Shown here: one piece after another, positions 12,085-33,465 of the stretch
Layout of the letters: each line of letters opens with the position of its first letter
Position numbering within the stretch: the first letter of the stretch is position 1
Source of the DNA: an uncultured Bacteroidota bacterium
GTDB taxonomy: Bacteria > Bacteroidota > Bacteroidia > 2-12-FULL-35-15
Assembly (NCBI GenBank): GCA_903911435.1
Contig: CAIWDF010000080.1
Span: 1-33,867, forward strand
Length of the DNA stretch: 33,867 bases
Direction: 5' to 3'
Made by a program: the position numbers and the translations under genes
The notes under the pieces: model-generated
Seen by the model: only the letters and a program-made list of their open reading frames with translations
The model's database searches: none
Told to the model about the DNA's origin: nothing

Positions 12085-14616
12085 TTAGTCCTTAATTATT
12101 TTCTTGTTCACCACCGTTTTATTTTCGTCTACTATCCGTACAAAATAAATTCCTTTGGTAAAGCTTGTTAAATCTAATGTTGAATGTAGATTACTAATCA
12201 CTGATTGATAAACCTCCTCCCCTATTACATTGAAAACGGTTATACTTTCTATTCTGTTTTTGGTGCTATTTATTTCGAATCTTCCTGCACTTGGATTAGG
12301 ATATACGGTAATGTTGTTCTCCGCACTCAAGTCGGCAACCTGCACTCCAAGCAATGATATATCCGATTCCCACAAGCCTCTACCATAAGTTGCTGCTCTT
12401 AACTTCATTGTGTTGTATTGTATTTCTAATTCATCAACGATAACATTCGGCAAGCCATTGTCGAAGGGTACCCAATCAGTCAAGGTATTGTCTTTGTAGA
12501 ATACTCCAAAGTCGGTACCAATGTAGAGTCCATCATTCGAATTGTTTACATATACAATACAATCAACAGGTACATTGCTCAATGTTCCAGAATCATTGGT
12601 CCAGGTGGTACCTCCATTCACTGATTTAAACACTTTGTTACCTGCAGTGTAACCCGAAAGGGTAACCCATATCTTTTGAGGGTTGGTGTTCGACACACCG
12701 ATATAGGTTATCGCTGCATTGGAAACAGGCAAGCCGGCAGTGATGCTTGTCCATGATGTTCCTCCATTTGTGGTTCGAAACAAATTAAAATAATCTCCGG
12801 TATAAAGATAATTGCTATTGGAAGGCGCAATGGCAAGTACATTCAAGGGGCTTCCTAATAAATCGGTTGAGATAGGATTAAACGAATATCCTCCATCGGT
12901 TGATTTATAAACGTAATTGTAAGCGGTATAATAATTCTGATTATTATTTGGGTCAATGATGATGGGCGTTATCCAATCTCCATTCATATCTGGCGATACA
13001 TCAAAATAAGTCGCACCACCATCGGTCGACATGTTGATGCTTCCATATTGAGAACAACTGAACACCTTATTCGAATCAGCAAAGTCAACGAGTTGCTCCA
13101 TGCCATCTGCCCACATTTTCATTTCCCAATACGTTCCGTTATATTTCACCGAGCCATTGTCTTGTTGCCCACAGTACACTATGTTAGGATTGGTTTGCGA
13201 ACAACTCAAGCGATAAAATTGTGCAATGGAAATATTGCTACTGATGTCAGTCCAAGAAATCCCTCCATCGGTCGTTCTAAAAACTCCACCATCATTGCAG
13301 TTATACACGGTATCGTTTCCATGAGGATTCACTTTAACATCATGCCCGTCAGCATGGTCGTAATTGGATGCAGGCCAAGCAGTGTAATCGCTGGTAGTTG
13401 TAAAGCTTTGTCCTCCATCTATTGATTTGCTTACGTCAACCCCTGATGTATACACGGTATTAGCATCTAACTGCGACACATTGATGATGGTATTATAATA
13501 TCCATAACCTGCATCAGCCATGCCCACATAAGGAAAGGAGCTTCCGCCATTTGCCGAACGATACAATTCTCCGTTGGAAGTAAGAACATAAATTACAGTA
13601 GGGTCAGCTGGAGTTACAGCAATACTTACTCTTTCCGGAGAATTGGAATAACCTACATTGGCTGGTGTCCACGTAAGTCCTGAATTGGAGGAAACATAAA
13701 TATCATCGCTCTTGCTAGCATATACCTTGGCTGCATTGATGGTATTAAATTCAATGTCGAATACGTGCCCCATCAATACATTGGTCCAAGTAGCACCCGC
13801 ATCTGTACTTCTCCACAATCCATCGCGAGCCGCTGCCAGCAACAATTGCGAGTTGACAGGCGATACAAGGATGCGCTGCACCACATTGTTCTGCATCTGC
13901 GAATAGGTTAATCCTGTAGCATTCCATGTTGCCCCTCCATCAGTCGATTTCAGAACCCCTGCACTGTAAGTGCCACCCCAGAAAGGTTGAAAGCTACCTA
14001 CTATTCCGCCTGCTTCGTAGGCATAGCCATCGCCAGTAGCGATATACATGTTATTCGTATTCTGATGATCAATGGCAATGTCGGCAATACTGATGTTTGG
14101 TAGTAAATCGGTATTCGAAGTCCAGGAAGTGCCGCCATTAGTGGTTTTCCACAAACCACCATTGGGTGAGCCTATCCACAGTGTGTTCGAATTAAATGGG
14201 TCAACTTCCACAACGTTGATACGTCCCATACCGCCTCCATTTCCTGGAATAGCAAGGGGCCCCAACGGTGTCCAATTGTTAATCGACTTTTCATGAGTCG
14301 TCTTTTTTTCTTCAGAAGCAAACTTGTGATACTCATCCCACAAAGCAAGCGAATTGAATTTGCCCGAAGGATAAACCCTAGGTTCCATAAACTTTTCCCA
14401 ACGTTTGAATTGTTGATATTCTCCGTCAGCTTTATTTTTAGTCTCGTAAGGCGAAAAGTTTTTGTTGTTCCAATATTCATTGAAGGCTTTCTGAACATCA
14501 TAAAAATTGGTTTCCTTATTTTGAGGTAGGTTTTTCATCCATTCCTGTGCGGGAAGCATAGTGGTAATGAAGAAAAATAACACAGTAGCTGAAATGAATT
14601 TTTGTTTAGGATTCAT
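12085..14616 (-). CDS. Secreted Asp-box (BNR/VPS10-like) beta-propeller protein with T9SS sorting domain
   Basis: An 843-residue exported protein. Signal peptide 1-24 ends in PAQ. Residues about 25-105 hold a family-typical leader (QQFKRWEKFMEPRVYPSG). Residues about 110-760 carry around eleven Asp-box repeats such as TTNGGTSW, STDGGATW, STDAGATW, TTDGGISW and SVNGGTTW, which fold as one or two beta-propellers of the sortilin/sialidase/xyloglucanase type. Residues about 765-843 (ENNITVYPNPSAGRF to the end) form a type A T9SS sorting domain. Many relatives are called glycosyl hydrolase or VPS10 domain proteins, but I see no clear catalytic pair, so binding or adhesion is as likely as hydrolysis. 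It is monocistronic. Confidence 0.9.
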   Translation of the reverse strand: MNPKQKFISATVLFFFITTMLPAQEWMKNLPQNKETNFYDVQKAFNEYWNNKNFSPYETKNKADGEYQQFKRWEKFMEPRVYPSGKFNSLALWDEYHKFASEEKKTTHEKSINNWTPLGPLAIPGNGGGMGRINVVEVDPFNSNTLWIGSPNGGLWKTTNGGTSWTSNTDLLPNISIADIAIDHQNTNNMYIATGDGYAYEAGGIVGSFQPFWGGTYSAGVLKSTDGGATWNATGLTYSQMQNNVVQRILVSPVNSQLLLAAARDGLWRSTDAGATWTNVLMGHVFDIEFNTINAAKVYASKSDDIYVSSNSGLTWTPANVGYSNSPERVSIAVTPADPTVIYVLTSNGELYRSANGGSSFPYVGMADAGYGYYNTIINVSQLDANTVYTSGVDVSKSIDGGQSFTTTSDYTAWPASNYDHADGHDVKVNPHGNDTVYNCNDGGVFRTTDGGISWTDISSNISIAQFYRLSCSQTNPNIVYCGQQDNGSVKYNGTYWEMKMWADGMEQLVDFADSNKVFSCSQYGSINMSTDGGATYFDVSPDMNGDWITPIIIDPNNNQNYYTAYNYVYKSTDGGYSFNPISTDLLGSPLNVLAIAPSNSNYLYTGDYFNLFRTTNGGTSWTSITAGLPVSNAAITYIGVSNTNPQKIWVTLSGYTAGNKVFKSVNGGTTWTNDSGTLSNVPVDCIVYVNNSNDGLYIGTDFGVFYKDNTLTDWVPFDNGLPNVIVDELEIQYNTMKLRAATYGRGLWESDISLLGVQVADLSAENNITVYPNPSAGRFEINSTKNRIESITVFNVIGEEVYQSVISNLHSTLDLTSFTKGIYFVRIVDENKTVVNKKIIKD

Positions 14617-14639
14617 AGATAGGTGTTTTAAATTTATAA

Positions 14640-14647
14640 CAAAACTA
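14640..14647 (-). promoter_or_regulatory. Possible -7 box (TAGTTTTG) for the Asp-box protein gene
   Basis: Minus-strand TAnnTTTG match 23 bp before the start codon. No good -33 TTTG at the usual spacing. Confidence 0.4.
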
Positions 14648-15274
14648 AGAATATAATTTAGAAGAACTCATTTTTTCGTCATAATATTAAGTGAGCACTT
14701 TCATTTCAAAACACCATTTCTCAAAATCTTTTCCTCGATTTTCTATTGAGAAATACTTTTAAAAAAAACTTTAGGTGGAATTCAGATAGAAATTTTCTCC
14801 TCGTTGATAAGGTATCGACATCGGTATTCATTTCAAAAATGATGAAGAGTAAGGTGAAGACATTACCCCCTAAAATTCATTTCCCATTTCATAAGATTTC
14901 ACACTATATATTATAGTGTATTTCCAAAAATCGACATCCGTTTTGGTAAAAAATGATATTTCAAGTCGAGAATCGTAAGCTTGCGAAAGACATTTTTTTT
15001 GAAATCCAACCCCTCGTAAACTTACGATGGATGTCCTCAGTTCAAAACTCATGGTTCGTAATATTACGAGCCTTAAGTTTGGTCCCAAAACTGCCCCTCG
15101 TAAACTTACGATCGGTCGCCTTGCGCGCAATCCTGCCGGTCGTAAGTTTACGAGGCATAGGATTGCGCGCAAGGCTATGCCTCGTAAGTCGAAAAAAGGG
15201 GGGTATTTCTGCCCCTTTCTAACACGGAATCTTACTAGGACTCACCTTTTATAGTGCTGAATATCAAGATTATT
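14648..15274. other. Intergenic region dominated by short palindromes
   Basis: No supported gene. It contains a palindrome at 14901-14919 (ACACTATA arms around TAT), the regularly spaced dyad array at 14954-15194, and a weak AAAGGGG/CCCCTTT stem (15195-15218) that ends in a T-run on the minus strand. Short open frames on both strands here come from the 21-bp (seven-codon) periodicity and are not called. Confidence 0.75.
14954..15194. repeat. Array of dyads with centres on a 21-bp lattice
   Basis: Palindromic sites centred at 14958.5, 14979.5, 15020.5, 15062.5, 15083.5, 15104.5, 15125.5, 15146.5, 15167.5 and 15188.5. From 15062.5 onward each step is exactly 21 bp, and 15020.5 is 42 bp earlier. 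The main dyad is CGTAAnnTTACG (15015, 15057, 15099, 15141; a half site at 15183). It alternates with a second dyad TTGCGCGCAA (15121, 15163) or TTTGG-TC-CCAAA (15078). The variant CGTAAGCTTGCG at 14974 is 1 bp off the lattice. Confidence 0.85.
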
Positions 15275-15314
15275 TAACAAAAAAGGAAGGAATCCTGCGG
15301 AGATTCCTTCCTTT
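15275..15314 (-). terminator. Intrinsic terminator region downstream of the PNGase F-like gene
   Basis: A perfect 13-bp stem (15282-15294 with 15302-15314) and seven-base loop. Read on the minus strand it is followed by a T-run (TTTTTTG), so it should end transcription of the gene at 15501-18956. Confidence 0.85.
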
Positions 15315-15330
15315 CTAGGGAGCTCATTGA

Positions 15331-15426
15331 CTCCAAATTTTGCCAACCATCGGTTGTTTGGCGGTAGTTTTCTACTCGCTATGGCGATGGTTCGAGATTT
15401 TTGCAATAATTGCAAATTTTGGGAGC
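15331..15426 (-). other. Possibly structured 3' untranslated region
   Basis: Between the PNGase F-like stop and its terminator there are nested inverted repeats: AACCATCG/CGATGGTT (15345-15352, 15385-15392), a GTAG-TTTT-CTAC stem inside them, a 15-base palindrome at 15401-15415 (TTGCAATAATTGCAA), and loosely complementary outer AT-rich arms. This could be a folded RNA end or an old repeat. Confidence 0.4.
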
Positions 15427-15500
15427 ATCCTAACCGTCATTTTAGGTGAAAATCCTGCCCAAAATTTGGTCTTTTCAGTCCCCTTTTGCTTCGCAATTTT

Positions 15501-18500
15501 TTATTGAATAATCATCCTCTTCGACACAAATTCATCACCCGTGCGAAGCGTTACAAAATACACTCCTTTTTTAAGGAATGATAAATCGGCATTTACACTT
15601 TCGGCAGTGAGACTTTTGAATTCATAGTTATACACTTTTTTACCCATCACATCAAAAATCTCAATCTTGCCATCCTTGCGAACCGACAAATCAACGTTGA
15701 TGTAGACATGACCATCAGAAGGATTGGGGTAAACATTGAGCAGCGCTTTATCGGTATACACCAAGTCGTTGGTACTCGAAGTTAAGCCAACGGTGAACTG
15801 TTGATAGACTTTCCCACCAAAATCGGCATTGAAATTTTTGAAAATAGCATTCGGTGTCACACGTCTAAAACGAAGATAACCAGAACCCTGATTGGTATTC
15901 GCCCACCAACTCAATCCATCTCCACCGCCACCGCCATTTCCAGCAGCATTATCGGTGAGTTCGAAGGTATAGCAACCATTCGGAAGGTGAATCAGAGTAT
16001 CTCTGTAAACCGTATTGGCAAGCATATTACTATGCGAAATAATAATATTTCCTACATCATCTTTCAACGTATAGGCATTGTCTTGTGGATAATTATTTGT
16101 TTTTAACTCAATCACCATTGGAACAGGAAACACGTTTGGATAGGTGAAATGCGAAAGCTTAACATTGTTGTTGGCATATTGATCAGTTCCTCCATTCGGA
16201 TTACTAACCGAAACAGTAAAGTCGGTTGCGCCTTGCAGCCACGCGAAAGTGCCGAGTGTAACCGTTGCCGACTCGGTAAACTTAAGATTGCCGGTCCAAT
16301 GATAGGTTGACAAAACAGCTCCCACCAAGCCATACGTAATGTCGAGCGAAGTGAGAACGGTAGAACCTGTATTCTTTATTTTCACAATAGGGCTGGTACA
16401 AACCGGATTGTATCGTCCATACATCTGGTCAGTGCTTGGCGAGAGGATATCCTCAACAGCTGCATCCAACGTGTGATTGGGAGCACCATACGTTATCAGT
16501 TGGTCTTCTATTTGAAAATAATCCCAACTGCCCGTATGCGTATAAGGCTGCACCGAGTGGTTGAGGGCTACTGTATTATTAGGCAAAGCAAACGGAGAAA
16601 GTTCCCAATCGTAGGTCCACACTTCGGCACCCGGACACCAATTGGCACGACTATACACCCATGTGCCACCTTGTGGATAAACAGGATTCACATCACAGTT
16701 ATCACGCCAAACGGTTTTCGAAAACTGTTGAATACCGTTCACCTTAAAGTAATGTGGAATGGCGCAAAATTCGGAACAGTTGTTAGGTGTGTCCATGCCA
16801 TGCCCCGTAATACGCGACTTCCAGCGCGAGTTAAAAGCATTAGCCGGAATATTTAAATTGAGTGTCTGAAGATGCGTGATGGAATCTGTTGGTGTACCAT
16901 AGTTGAACCCTCCATTCCAAAGGTTCTTCACAGCTATTGGGTCGCGTGGCGGAATACCTTTGATTAATAAAAATTTCACATCCAACAATTCCTGCCAATT
17001 GCCAGCATTCAAATGAACACTATCGGCAAGCAAGGTACGATAATCACTCACATCAAAGGTCCAAGTGAAACCATTGCCCAAGCTCAAACCATTGCCATAA
17101 GGGGTAATGAAGCGAGCCAACTCATAACGTAACACTTGTGGAAATTTGTGATACCAATTGTAATACACTTCATTCATGGTAGAGTCAGGCGTTACAAGGG
17201 TCGAATCGTAAGCAACACCTTGCGCATTGTATAAATAATGATTGTAATACGAAGGCCATACATTATAAGTAGAAGTTACGCCTCCCGGATTATTAATAGA
17301 ATCGGTATAAGTAATAATTTGAACAGGTACATTCACGGTAGAGTCAACCACCAAAGTAGAGTCTAAATGCTGAGTGTACACACCTTGTTCGAAAATAATA
17401 TTAGGACGTAAAGTAGAAGTAGTAAGTCCCGAAACAATCTCTGCAGCGTCTCTCAACGGATTATCAACCGAATTTAAGGTAGCTGTAGGATGAGCCACTG
17501 GTGCTGCATCGGCAAAGGTCATGTAATTTCCGTCATCAAAATGATAATACAAAGCAAGGTTCGCATAATTAGGATGAGCAGCATCAATTTGTTTATTCAT
17601 ATAGGATTGAATGGTAGCTGCCGACAACTCCGCATTAAACACAGCAAACTCATCTATCTTGCCCTCGTAGGTTTGAGAGCCACTCCAGTTGCCTTTTCCA
17701 ATTCTGAAATTCTTAATACCTTTCATACTCTTGGTTTTGCCAGTGCCGGAAAACCAAAGAGCACCATTCAAATAAATTTTCATAGCACCTGTAACTGTGC
17801 TTTTTGTAAACGCCCAATGATTCCATTGCCCTTTAATTTCGGCAGATACAGCCGCTTTGTTTATTCTATCGTATGAAGTACCACCATATCCTGCATCCCA
17901 ATACACATTGCTATCCGACCACGGAAGATGTGAATTCAACAAACGATTGCCAAGGGAGTCAACTGCTTCGAAAGCAGTACCATTCATCGGTTGCAGAGTC
18001 GGTGACCCGTAACACCAAAACGTAACCGTTACGAAAGAGTCAATAGCAGCGAGCTGATTGTTCAATGGAATGTTTACGTATCCTGCACTATGAAAGGCGG
18101 CTACTCTATCGCTTCCCGCGTTGCTCAACGATGAGTTGAATGAAGTAGTGCTTGCTGCCAAAAGGTTATCCGTGCTCGGTACAAGGTTATCGTAAGTAAT
18201 ATCAACCAATAAATTCGAAAGACCATCCCAATTGAAAGGTATGGTGAACTGCAGACTATTCCAGCCCAGCAATGTGAATTGAGTGTTTTGTGAGTACACC
18301 GTAGTAAAGGCCGTATCGCTATAAGTAGCTTGCGACAATGAGTCGAGAGGTGATGATTTGATTCTTATTTTCATGTTGTGCAAATTACCACCCAACGATT
18401 GAAGATAAAACTGAAGACCCGATATAGCACCAGCACTCATTCCTGCAGCAGTTATTTCACTCGCTTTCCAAAGATATTGAGTATGCGAAACAGGTTGAGA

Positions 18501-18956
18501 AGCATCAAAAGGAAGAGTGCTTGCAGCCGAACCATTGCCAACGGTATAGGTGTTCAAGGAGGAAGTACCAGTGTTCACCATGTAATACTGCCAACTAGGA
18601 TGATAACTATACGAAGGAGTGTTCATATAACTATACATAGCAGGAGCAGCACCATTCACGGTGTACACCGGCTGATGCATCAAGGTGGAATCTTGCAAGT
18701 GAGTATGCTTATACAAATACGTATACGTTAAATAATCCCACTCACCACAAGCAGGCGACTGCGCAGGATTACACTTCAGCGTGTATTTCATCAACACCTT
18801 CTCACACCTCATGGTATCTGAGGGGAAAACAAACCATGCATCTTGTGGCGAACCAAAACTAAATGTTTGAACCACTACGGTATCTCCCGGACTAGCCATC
18901 GAATTGAGTGTAACGAAAGCACTAAGAATAAAACTAAGAATAACTATTTTCTTCAT
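15501..18956 (-). CDS. Secreted PNGase F-like protein with LamG insertion and T9SS sorting domain
   Basis: A 1151-residue exported protein with a signal peptide (1-21). The N-terminal part carries a PNGase F-like block, KVLMKYTLKC...CGEWDYL (54-76), including Trp73-Asp74, near where PNGase F has its catalytic Asp. The rest of that domain resumes only at about 600-665 (LRYELARFITPYGNGL). The C-terminal domain at about 700-790 has NCSEFC, TVWRDNCDVNPVYPQGGTW and RANWCPG, strongly PNGase F-like with several Cys. Between them lie about 450 extra residues, including a LamG/concanavalin-like domain (about 285-455; WNHWAFTKS, YEGKIDEFAVFN). Residues about 1070-1151 form the T9SS domain (LNVYPNPSDGHVYINV). 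It may remove N-glycans from glycoproteins; activity of the split catalytic domain is unproven. Monocistronic, with its own terminator. Confidence 0.9.
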   Translation of the reverse strand: MKKIVILSFILSAFVTLNSMASPGDTVVVQTFSFGSPQDAWFVFPSDTMRCEKVLMKYTLKCNPAQSPACGEWDYLTYTYLYKHTHLQDSTLMHQPVYTVNGAAPAMYSYMNTPSYSYHPSWQYYMVNTGTSSLNTYTVGNGSAASTLPFDASQPVSHTQYLWKASEITAAGMSAGAISGLQFYLQSLGGNLHNMKIRIKSSPLDSLSQATYSDTAFTTVYSQNTQFTLLGWNSLQFTIPFNWDGLSNLLVDITYDNLVPSTDNLLAASTTSFNSSLSNAGSDRVAAFHSAGYVNIPLNNQLAAIDSFVTVTFWCYGSPTLQPMNGTAFEAVDSLGNRLLNSHLPWSDSNVYWDAGYGGTSYDRINKAAVSAEIKGQWNHWAFTKSTVTGAMKIYLNGALWFSGTGKTKSMKGIKNFRIGKGNWSGSQTYEGKIDEFAVFNAELSAATIQSYMNKQIDAAHPNYANLALYYHFDDGNYMTFADAAPVAHPTATLNSVDNPLRDAAEIVSGLTTSTLRPNIIFEQGVYTQHLDSTLVVDSTVNVPVQIITYTDSINNPGGVTSTYNVWPSYYNHYLYNAQGVAYDSTLVTPDSTMNEVYYNWYHKFPQVLRYELARFITPYGNGLSLGNGFTWTFDVSDYRTLLADSVHLNAGNWQELLDVKFLLIKGIPPRDPIAVKNLWNGGFNYGTPTDSITHLQTLNLNIPANAFNSRWKSRITGHGMDTPNNCSEFCAIPHYFKVNGIQQFSKTVWRDNCDVNPVYPQGGTWVYSRANWCPGAEVWTYDWELSPFALPNNTVALNHSVQPYTHTGSWDYFQIEDQLITYGAPNHTLDAAVEDILSPSTDQMYGRYNPVCTSPIVKIKNTGSTVLTSLDITYGLVGAVLSTYHWTGNLKFTESATVTLGTFAWLQGATDFTVSVSNPNGGTDQYANNNVKLSHFTYPNVFPVPMVIELKTNNYPQDNAYTLKDDVGNIIISHSNMLANTVYRDTLIHLPNGCYTFELTDNAAGNGGGGGDGLSWWANTNQGSGYLRFRRVTPNAIFKNFNADFGGKVYQQFTVGLTSSTNDLVYTDKALLNVYPNPSDGHVYINVDLSVRKDGKIEIFDVMGKKVYNYEFKSLTAESVNADLSFLKKGVYFVTLRTGDEFVSKRMIIQ

Positions 18957-32878: not shown

Positions 32879-33422
32879 ATACCTAGAAACGGATTGGGAG
32901 AATACCAGAAATGGTTTATGAGGATACCAGAAACGATTTATGAGAATACCAGAAACGGTTTATGAGTATACCAGAAACGGTTTATGAGAATACCAGAAAC
33001 GGTTTATGAGAATACCAGAAACGATTTATGAGCATACCAGAAACGGTTTATGAGAATACCAGAAACGACTTATGAGTATACCAGAAACGATTTATGACAA
33101 TACCAGAAACGGTTTATGAGAATACCAGAAACGATTTATGAGATACCAAGAAGCCTTATATGAGGGTGGCGAAATGAGGATGAGGATACCAGAAACGGTT
33201 TATGAGGATACAAGATACGACTTGTGAGAATGCCAGAAGCAGTGTATGAGGATACCAGAAACGGTTTATGAGTATACCAGAAGCGGTGTATGAGTATACC
33301 AGAAACGAAATATAAGGAGTGAAAAGTGCAGATGAGAACCCAAGAAACGAATTATGAGGATACCAGAAACGGTTTATGAGTATACCAGAAGCGTTGTATG
33401 AATATTCCAGAAACGGGCTATG
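32879..33422. repeat. 22-bp tandem repeat array, about 23 copies
   Basis: Consensus unit ATACCAGAAACGGTTTATGA plus two bases (GN). About 23 units are present; most are exactly 22 bp. Variation is concentrated in the two bases after ACG (mostly GT or AT), in the last base, and in diverged copies near 33145, 33200 and 33320, where short insertions interrupt the phase. Forward and reverse frames I checked contain stops in the unit itself (TTATGA forward, TCATAA reverse), so it is not a coding repeat. There are no variable spacers, which excludes CRISPR. Confidence 0.9.
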
Positions 33423-33465
33423 AAGGGGGGATAAATGCAGAAATAGCTGAAATTATGCAAGTTAA

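Follow-up and report, generated by a model that had tools for sequence, protein, structure and literature searches.

An intergenic array in the stretch of DNA analysed here (the window, 33,867 nucleotides from an uncultured Bacteroidota bacterium) carries two palindromes in alternation with centres every 21 bp, and among its copies spacing and symmetry are kept better than sequence. The array is best grouped with many other intergenic tandem arrays whose unit measures 21 bp or a multiple of it, whatever the unit sequence, and the family found in the window would be one member of this class. Our preferred reading, to which we give a probability of about 45%, is that the array is the core of a small dispersed element, a MITE-like minisatellite of this 21-bp-locked class, in which a constraint on the duplex would hold the spacing and hairpin-templated copying, selection or both would maintain the symmetry.

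The array lies in the non-coding interval 14617-15500, which has a minus-strand gene on each side: 12085-14616 codes for a secreted sortilin/BNR-repeat protein and 15501-18956 for a secreted protein with PNGase F and laminin-G domains, both with a type IX sorting domain. Its 42-bp unit consists of a 14-bp palindrome (P1), a 9-bp spacer, a 10-bp position (P2) and another 9-bp spacer. P1, TCGTAAnnTTACGA, recurs every 42 bp, as TCGTAAACTTACGA (15014-15027, centre 15020.5), TCGTAATATTACGA (15056-15069, centre 15062.5), TCGTAAACTTACGA again (15098-15111, centre 15104.5) and TCGTAAGTTTACGA (15140-15153, centre 15146.5), the last with its central bases flipped in place (AC to GT) relative to the neighbouring P1 sites. 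P2 is TTGCGCGCAA at 15121-15130 (centre 15125.5) and at 15163-15172 (centre 15167.5), the latter within an extended inverted repeat of 40 bp (15148-15187, 90%), and it is substituted at 15079-15088 (centre 15083.5) by TTGGTCCCAA, inside TTTGGTCCCAAA. The first P2 position (15037-15046, centre 15041.5) is degenerate, reading TCAGTTCAAA, and is a perfect dyad, TGAGTTCTCA, in one paralogue (C1, below). Both the alternation of two dyads and the degenerate position had been described in the sequence-only reading, and both hold.

Upstream of these sites, a first P1-like site, TCGTAAGCTTGCGA (14973-14986, centre 14979.5), is placed 1 bp off the grid. The array ends with the half-site TCGTAAGTCGAAAA (15182-15195, centre 15188.5), a truncated P1 that forms only two of six pairs and is not a dyad; the position is non-palindromic in all three paralogues too. 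Directly past the array, the plus strand carries a hairpin, AAAGGGG...CCCCTTT (15195-15218), which could be a weak terminator, and at a similar place the C104 paralogue has another stem (TGACAAAA/TTTTGTCA). A perfect 13-bp hairpin, AAAGGAAGGAATC...GATTCCTTCCTTT, follows at 15282-15314, ahead of the adjoining gene, and is likely a bidirectional terminator.

Ten dyads had been placed on or next to a 21-bp lattice, of which seven (15020.5, 15062.5, 15083.5, 15104.5, 15125.5, 15146.5 and 15167.5) proved clean and exactly on the grid, the remainder being the half-site, the degenerate position and the site 1 bp off. Similarly, the exact 21-bp succession claimed for 15062.5 and the six sites from 15083.5 to 15188.5 stands through 15167.5 and fails at the half-site. 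When the interval 14617-15500 was scanned for seven-site lattices, the best one had a pitch of 21.0 and started at 15020.5; its score of 0.83 compares with a maximum of 0.67 in 400 dinucleotide shuffles, none of which reached it (p about 0.0025, the lowest value that this number of shuffles allows). The proposed spacing of two helical turns is supported. The same lattice was also the best of its kind in the whole 33.9-kb window (maximum of 40 shuffles, 0.64). CGTAAnnTTACG occurs five times in the 4.19-Mb genome, four of them inside the array, and one pair of spacers is self-complementary (GGCATAG/CTATGCC). A CRISPR array was rejected, as the exact repeat is just 14 bp long, the 28-bp intervals contain a second dyad, and no Rfam family matched the array above its gathering threshold.

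Three paralogous copies are present in the same genome, at C104 672-886 (plus strand), C149 42395-42637 (minus strand) and C1 2718-2892 (minus strand). Alignment of the copies showed that 15009-15251 of the window (plus strand) is homologous to C104 and C149, which resemble each other over about 460 bp, well past the array, and that C1 matches the array part of the window element. The window, C104 and C149 copies are free of indels over 190 array columns at 64-80% identity, and C1, 61-69% identical to the others, has a single 2-base gap at the right edge, whereas the flanks are gapped in the same four-copy alignment. The four copies served to build a covariance model, with which the own genome and 35 congeneric genomes were searched; its strong matches were the four copies alone, along with antisense matches overlapping them, as palindromes would produce. 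The 35 congeners yielded no convincing family member (one match in G003 had E = 0.02). The specific dyads, for which a genome-wide scan had been proposed, do not recur in the genome outside this four-copy family.

The gene contexts of the four copies differ, comprising type IX secretion system (T9SS) cargo genes, a TPR/DUF1736 protein and proteins without family matches. For two of the four copies, secreted proteins of the type IX cargo kind lie on both sides, namely the two window genes described above and, in L071, 204-6971 and 7986-11786. Pairwise alignments of two dispersed array pairs revealed no clear terminal repeats, and neither a target duplication nor an empty site was found, the nearest orthologue of the neighbouring gene (G004, 67%) having a different gene and unrelated DNA upstream; transposition would be one candidate route of dispersal. 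Variable columns are spread evenly over the codon positions (31/32/33), stop codons interrupt every one of the six frames of C1, and there was no Pfam match. Judged from its sequence, the array is non-coding, and the codon-level constraint that had been named as evidence against the lattice is absent.

What the four copies conserve was analysed column by column. Invariant columns amount to 70% in P1, 39% in the spacers and 25% in P2, whose lattice places read TTGCGCGCAA, TTGGTTGCAA, AAAGTTCTTT, TAAGAACTTT, TTGGTCCCAA or TGAGTTCTCA across copies; nevertheless, P2 pairs are complementary at 75% in register versus about 25% at other offsets. Over the full set of 40 pairs, the two bases are complementary in 83.8% of cells, compared with 75.8% in shuffled and 26-45% in slid controls. 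Cells changed on both sides number 16 against 7.5 in shuffles, and none of 500 shuffles reached 16; double-sided changes and covariation lay above all or nearly all of these 500 shuffles and above every slid control. At nearly every P1 site, CGTAA is changed between copies to CGCAA on both sides together. Central bases of a site are also inverted in place between copies (AAG-AA-CTT in C1 vs AAG-TT-CTT in C149). The retention of symmetry over sequence, first claimed from a single locus, is therefore confirmed by the paralogues. For a set of four sequences, the evidence for the pattern is strong, and it would fit selection and templated mutation alike; the alignment shows that within the family the spacing is fixed, the symmetry mostly kept and the P2 sequence free.

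The 21-bp period extends far beyond this family. Tandem Repeats Finder, run on 498 kb of the own genome (a few of the sampled regions had been picked as holding copies of the element), gave 41 non-coding tandem arrays, and the period was an exact multiple of 21 (21n) in 26 of them: 21 bp in nine, 42 in 13, 63 in one and 84 in three. Against a uniform chance of 1/21, this corresponds to a P of about 5e-25, computed on 26 of 40 arrays and with shared families counted as independent. The genome-wide test set by the sequence-only reading thus came out in favour of the 21-bp spacing. A few arrays have units of 20, 22, 38 or 41 bp. Among 15 non-coding arrays in 700 kb of congeneric DNA, nine were 21n, concentrated in G004, G015, G027 and G002, and many other congeners showed no arrays in samples of 20-75 kb; other families of the class gave 3 of 11 (327 kb), and 100 kb of Escherichia coli none.

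The unit sequences of the 21n arrays are mostly unrelated, although some arrays form dispersed families in the own genome (L120/L128 and L041/L116/L126). Within the arrays of the pair L120/L128, only one difference in length occurs, and it measures exactly 21 bp. The majority of 42-bp units can be divided into two 21-bp monomers that have diverged; in L048, L052 and L125, as in the window array, the two halves have no similarity. Units of the other 21-bp arrays are near-identical and show no spacer diversity. The window itself holds two further arrays, a 21-bp tandem array (GATTTCGGCATCATCCTAAAC) at 9-86, the very start of the contig, and 25 copies of a 22-bp unit (ATACCAGAAACGGTTTATGAGA) at 32879-33423, one of the few arrays of the genome outside 21n. 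Two congeners have orthologous-looking arrays (L138:7230-7520 and L129:3180-3460) of swapped half-units, TTTCTTG/TTTCTGG with CAAGAAA/CTGGGGA/CTGGAAA, whose half-sites look as if they recombine as modules. We know of no established reason for a shared 21-bp spacing of intergenic repeats, and no report of such a lock across unrelated arrays was found in the open-access literature (subscription journals lay mostly outside the scope of the search).

Several properties that might have unified these arrays were rejected or found no support. Dyad symmetry as a general trait of 21-bp arrays had been an impression by eye, and it did not survive a comparison of units with their shuffles: 50 non-redundant other units had 4.62 of 6 pairs compared with 4.43 in shuffles, with 1 of 50 at p<=0.05. 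Because of this lack of enrichment, we regard dyads as a special trait of the window family and some others. A cooperative protein for which all sites face one side of the helix, as proposed from the window alone, cannot as put forward be the cause common to the class, since dyads are not general in it; moreover, with unit sequences that are mostly unrelated, no one sequence-specific protein could account for these arrays. Curved DNA was discarded, given no surplus of 10.5-bp phasing of AA/TT, WW, SS or YR in the arrays, while a promoter or terminator role found no support, the neighbours of the arrays (seven tandem, four divergent, three convergent) being arranged like those of intergenic DNA at large. 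Nor was there support for a Y1/RAYT transposase as the driver, as Y1 genes (PF01797) also occur in species whose samples contained no arrays. One 21-bp array (L072:902-1125) is located about 375 bp upstream of the Y1 (IS200/RAYT-like) transposase gene of the own genome.

An AT-rich, leader-like palindrome, ACACTATATATTATAGTGT, is found on the plus strand at 14901-14919, and in several species it adjoins arrays. Since loci retrieved for their resemblance to the window had first drawn attention to the motif, it was counted genome-wide: with up to two mismatches it has 22 matches in 36 congeneric genomes, against two for the reversed-pattern control. About 14 of the 22 matches adjoin a 21n array, as do all seven with at most one mismatch, mostly at a distance of 55-140 bp. 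For comparison, 14% of the AT-rich non-coding positions in these species are equally near a 21n array (P about 1e-7, weaker if two related pairs are allowed for). Two G004 loci resemble each other from ACACTATATATTATAGTGT onwards, across the array, but differ ahead of the motif. The palindrome may mark an end of the element.

Dyad arrays were also encountered in other taxa. A search of 59 relatives for tandem CGTAA dyads found none; a pattern search for such tandems retrieved arrays from Parabacteroides-type metagenome-assembled genomes (MAGs), Odoribacteraceae and others, other phyla included, whose spacing of 40-44 bp was imposed by the query, so that independent evidence lies solely in the half-period dyads and in dyad replacement. 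In several of them a second palindrome, absent from the query, alternates at half-period. Palindromes are replaced via hybrid units inside L027 (TTTCCAACATGTTGGAAA, TTTCCAAACCTTACGAAA, TTTCGTAACGTTACGAAA) and inside L017 (TTGCAAAACGTTTTGCAA, TAGCAAAACGTTACGCAA, TCGCGTAACATTACGCGA). Parabacteroides-type and Odoribacteraceae MAGs possess dyad lattices at 20.5-21 bp in which palindromes have been exchanged and some units are hybrids, composed half of one and half of the other. In the Parabacteroides-type locus L029:7338-7646, CCAGATACGCCGTATCTGG alternates at 20.5 bp with TTGTAA..TTACAA dyads, beside CGTAA dyads, which is another replacement of a palindrome at fixed pitch.

According to our preferred reading, a 21-bp-locked minisatellite under a duplex constraint, the arrays would gain or lose length in complete units of 21 bp, as the dispersed pair L120/L128 illustrates. 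A constraint that spans two helical turns of the duplex and engages one face of the helix would keep their register, and the ruler would most likely be a self-associating DNA-binding or nucleoid protein, or else the machinery that copies the units; we infer a bound protein in the former case. In the window family, each 21-bp step carries a dyad that stays symmetric while its sequence is swapped, probably through hairpin-templated correction of quasi-palindromes, one arm from the other, perhaps together with binding of a dimer. The fixed spacing, the near-complete lack of indels in the array, the symmetry of P2 despite its replaced sequence, the restriction of the family to four copies in one genome, the absence of coding constraint, the 21-bp step between L120 and L128, the dyad lattices of other MAGs and the genome-wide excess of 21n periods were counted in favour of this explanation. 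Counted against it were the mostly unrelated unit sequences, the lack of enrichment of dyads and of A/T phasing in other arrays, the lack of preference for promoters or terminators, the few units of 20, 22, 38 or 41 bp, and the searches that found no terminal repeats, target duplication or empty site. Template switching between inverted repeats is described as homogenising arms and inverting spacers (PMC8604942) and as creating and maintaining hairpins (PMC8794818); arm homogenisation and spacer inversion both appear in the window family (the AC to GT flip at 15146.5, and AAGAACTT vs AAGTTCTT between copies). Hairpin-templated copying accounts for symmetry, not for 21. Template copying, which the sequence-only reading had named as an alternative, would accordingly be a serious rival for the symmetry and not for the 21-bp lock.

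A neutral minisatellite, in which slippage or unequal recombination of a 21-bp (here 42-bp) unit combines with hairpin-templated correction of arms and symmetry has no function, is possible though we doubt it. Symmetry with changing sequence, in-place inversions of centres and hybrid units are all signatures of template switching, the arrays show no bias in gene orientation and the dyad family is species-specific. Nevertheless, this account gives no reason why 21 should be preferred over other lengths in mostly unrelated arrays, and leaves the absence of indels among copies at 61-80% identity and the shared leader-like motif unexplained. We consider improbable an operator array, comparable to plasmid centromeres or iterons such as SopC, in which a dedicated dimeric protein occupies P1, either that protein or a second one occupies P2, and binding is cooperative on one side of the helix. 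It would suit the two-helical-turn spacing, the strict conservation of length, and P1 as the most conserved part, with its concerted change of CGTAA to CGCAA. However, the same recognition sequence at every site is largely true of P1 and untrue of P2, which is replaced freely, with positions that differ completely between copies, something a sequence-specific protein would not permit; furthermore, the four copies sit in differing gene contexts without orientation preference, and no candidate protein was found.

It appears very unlikely that the locus is transcribed as a TIGR-type array of guide or hairpin RNAs, in which 14- and 10-nt repeats would alternate around 9-nt spacers and a shortened final repeat would be followed by a hairpin resembling a terminator. 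The 14-9-10-9 layout, the variable 9-mers, the truncated last P1 and the hairpin at 15195-15218 all resemble such an array, and the array strand folds far better than shuffles (z of -6.8 and -9.2), which the palindromes guarantee on both strands. Against it, PF01798 (Nop domain) had no match in the whole genome, though archaeal controls matched and a divergent Tas could escape, and the flanking genes tested are not Tas. The UG...CCA boxes are absent (P1 starts with TC and ends with GA; P2 ends are TT/AA or AA/TT), and the ends of P1 and P2 do not covary. In addition, the spacers are partly invariant between copies, with one pair self-complementary, and the units of other 21-bp arrays lack spacer diversity. 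Hardly credible is a decayed coding repeat of seven-codon units with incidental palindromes: 21 is divisible by 3, and open reading frames of 89 and 100 amino acids overlap the array, but the even codon-position split, the stops in C1, the missing Pfam match and related arrays with units of 20, 22, 38 and 41 bp refute it as far as sequence allows.

The unit lengths of tandem repeats are usually viewed as accidents of slippage. That most intergenic arrays of this genome share a two-turn unit despite mostly unrelated sequence is indicative of a ruler, physical or enzymatic, that operates on the DNA duplex. We tentatively suggest, as a bolder claim than the preferred reading, a so far undescribed Bacteroidota system that would make or maintain intergenic arrays with a two-turn unit regardless of sequence, each beside a leader-like palindrome, and that in one subclass would keep dyad symmetry while sequence drifts; its ruler would be a protein or copying machine reading the shape or phase of DNA and not its sequence. 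The four-copy dyad family is a natural experiment in which symmetry, spacing and sequence can be separated, and it makes testable whether palindromes are kept by hairpin-templated mutation alone or their phase is read by a protein. There is also a practical side, as about 9 of the 56 readable contig ends of the assembly fall in 21n-type arrays.

Four known kinds of system were compared with the window element. In SopC, the centromere of the F plasmid, every 43-bp repeat contains a palindrome; iteron arrays are tandem protein-binding sites. Both share with the window array tandem sites, palindromic in kind, at about four (or two) helical turns, protein binding being a feature of SopC and iterons; in contrast, the array described here is chromosomal, present in several copies in unrelated contexts and made of two alternating dyads with freely replaced sequence, and no partner gene adjoins it. 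REP/BIME elements are clustered intergenic palindromes with a shared tetranucleotide foot and a link to RAYT. They are alike in the clustering of intergenic palindromes and unlike in pitch; no shared tetranucleotide foot is present here and, across the genus, the occurrence of Y1 transposases (PF01797) does not follow that of the arrays.

TIGR arrays have two alternating repeats of 8-12 nt, 9-nt spacers, a truncated terminal edge repeat and a terminator; in some, the repeats are variable yet consistently palindromic, and other loci are reported to diverge in box motifs (PMC12045711). The window array shares the alternating short repeats, the 9-nt spacers, the truncated last repeat and the palindromic, variable repeats. 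It differs in its P1, which at 14 nt falls outside the 8-12-nt range, in spacers that vary between units yet are partly conserved between copies, and in having neither a Nop/Tas protein nor UG/CCA boxes.

Porphyromonas gingivalis carries BrickBuilt elements (23-nt units), 464/PgRS repeats (41-nt units) and 22-nt repeats, all dispersed, intergenic and non-coding, and 5 of the 19 BrickBuilt copies adjoin genes with T9SS sorting domains (PMC4596501). Compared with BrickBuilt, the unit here is 21/42 bp with alternating dyads of replaced sequence, no terminal inverted repeats were found, the family has four copies only and the flanking AT-rich palindrome is a different one. The likenesses are those of Bacteroidota intergenic tandem repeats whose units of 22, 23 and 41 (2 x 20.5) lie near two helical turns, with unrelated unit sequences of similar length within one genome and with adjoining T9SS genes, which the window array has on both sides. 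Like BrickBuilt, the window element is non-coding, has internal tandem repeats and is present in four copies in its genome. Compared by description, it is best read as related in kind to BrickBuilt and 464/PgRS, which would be its nearest published relatives.
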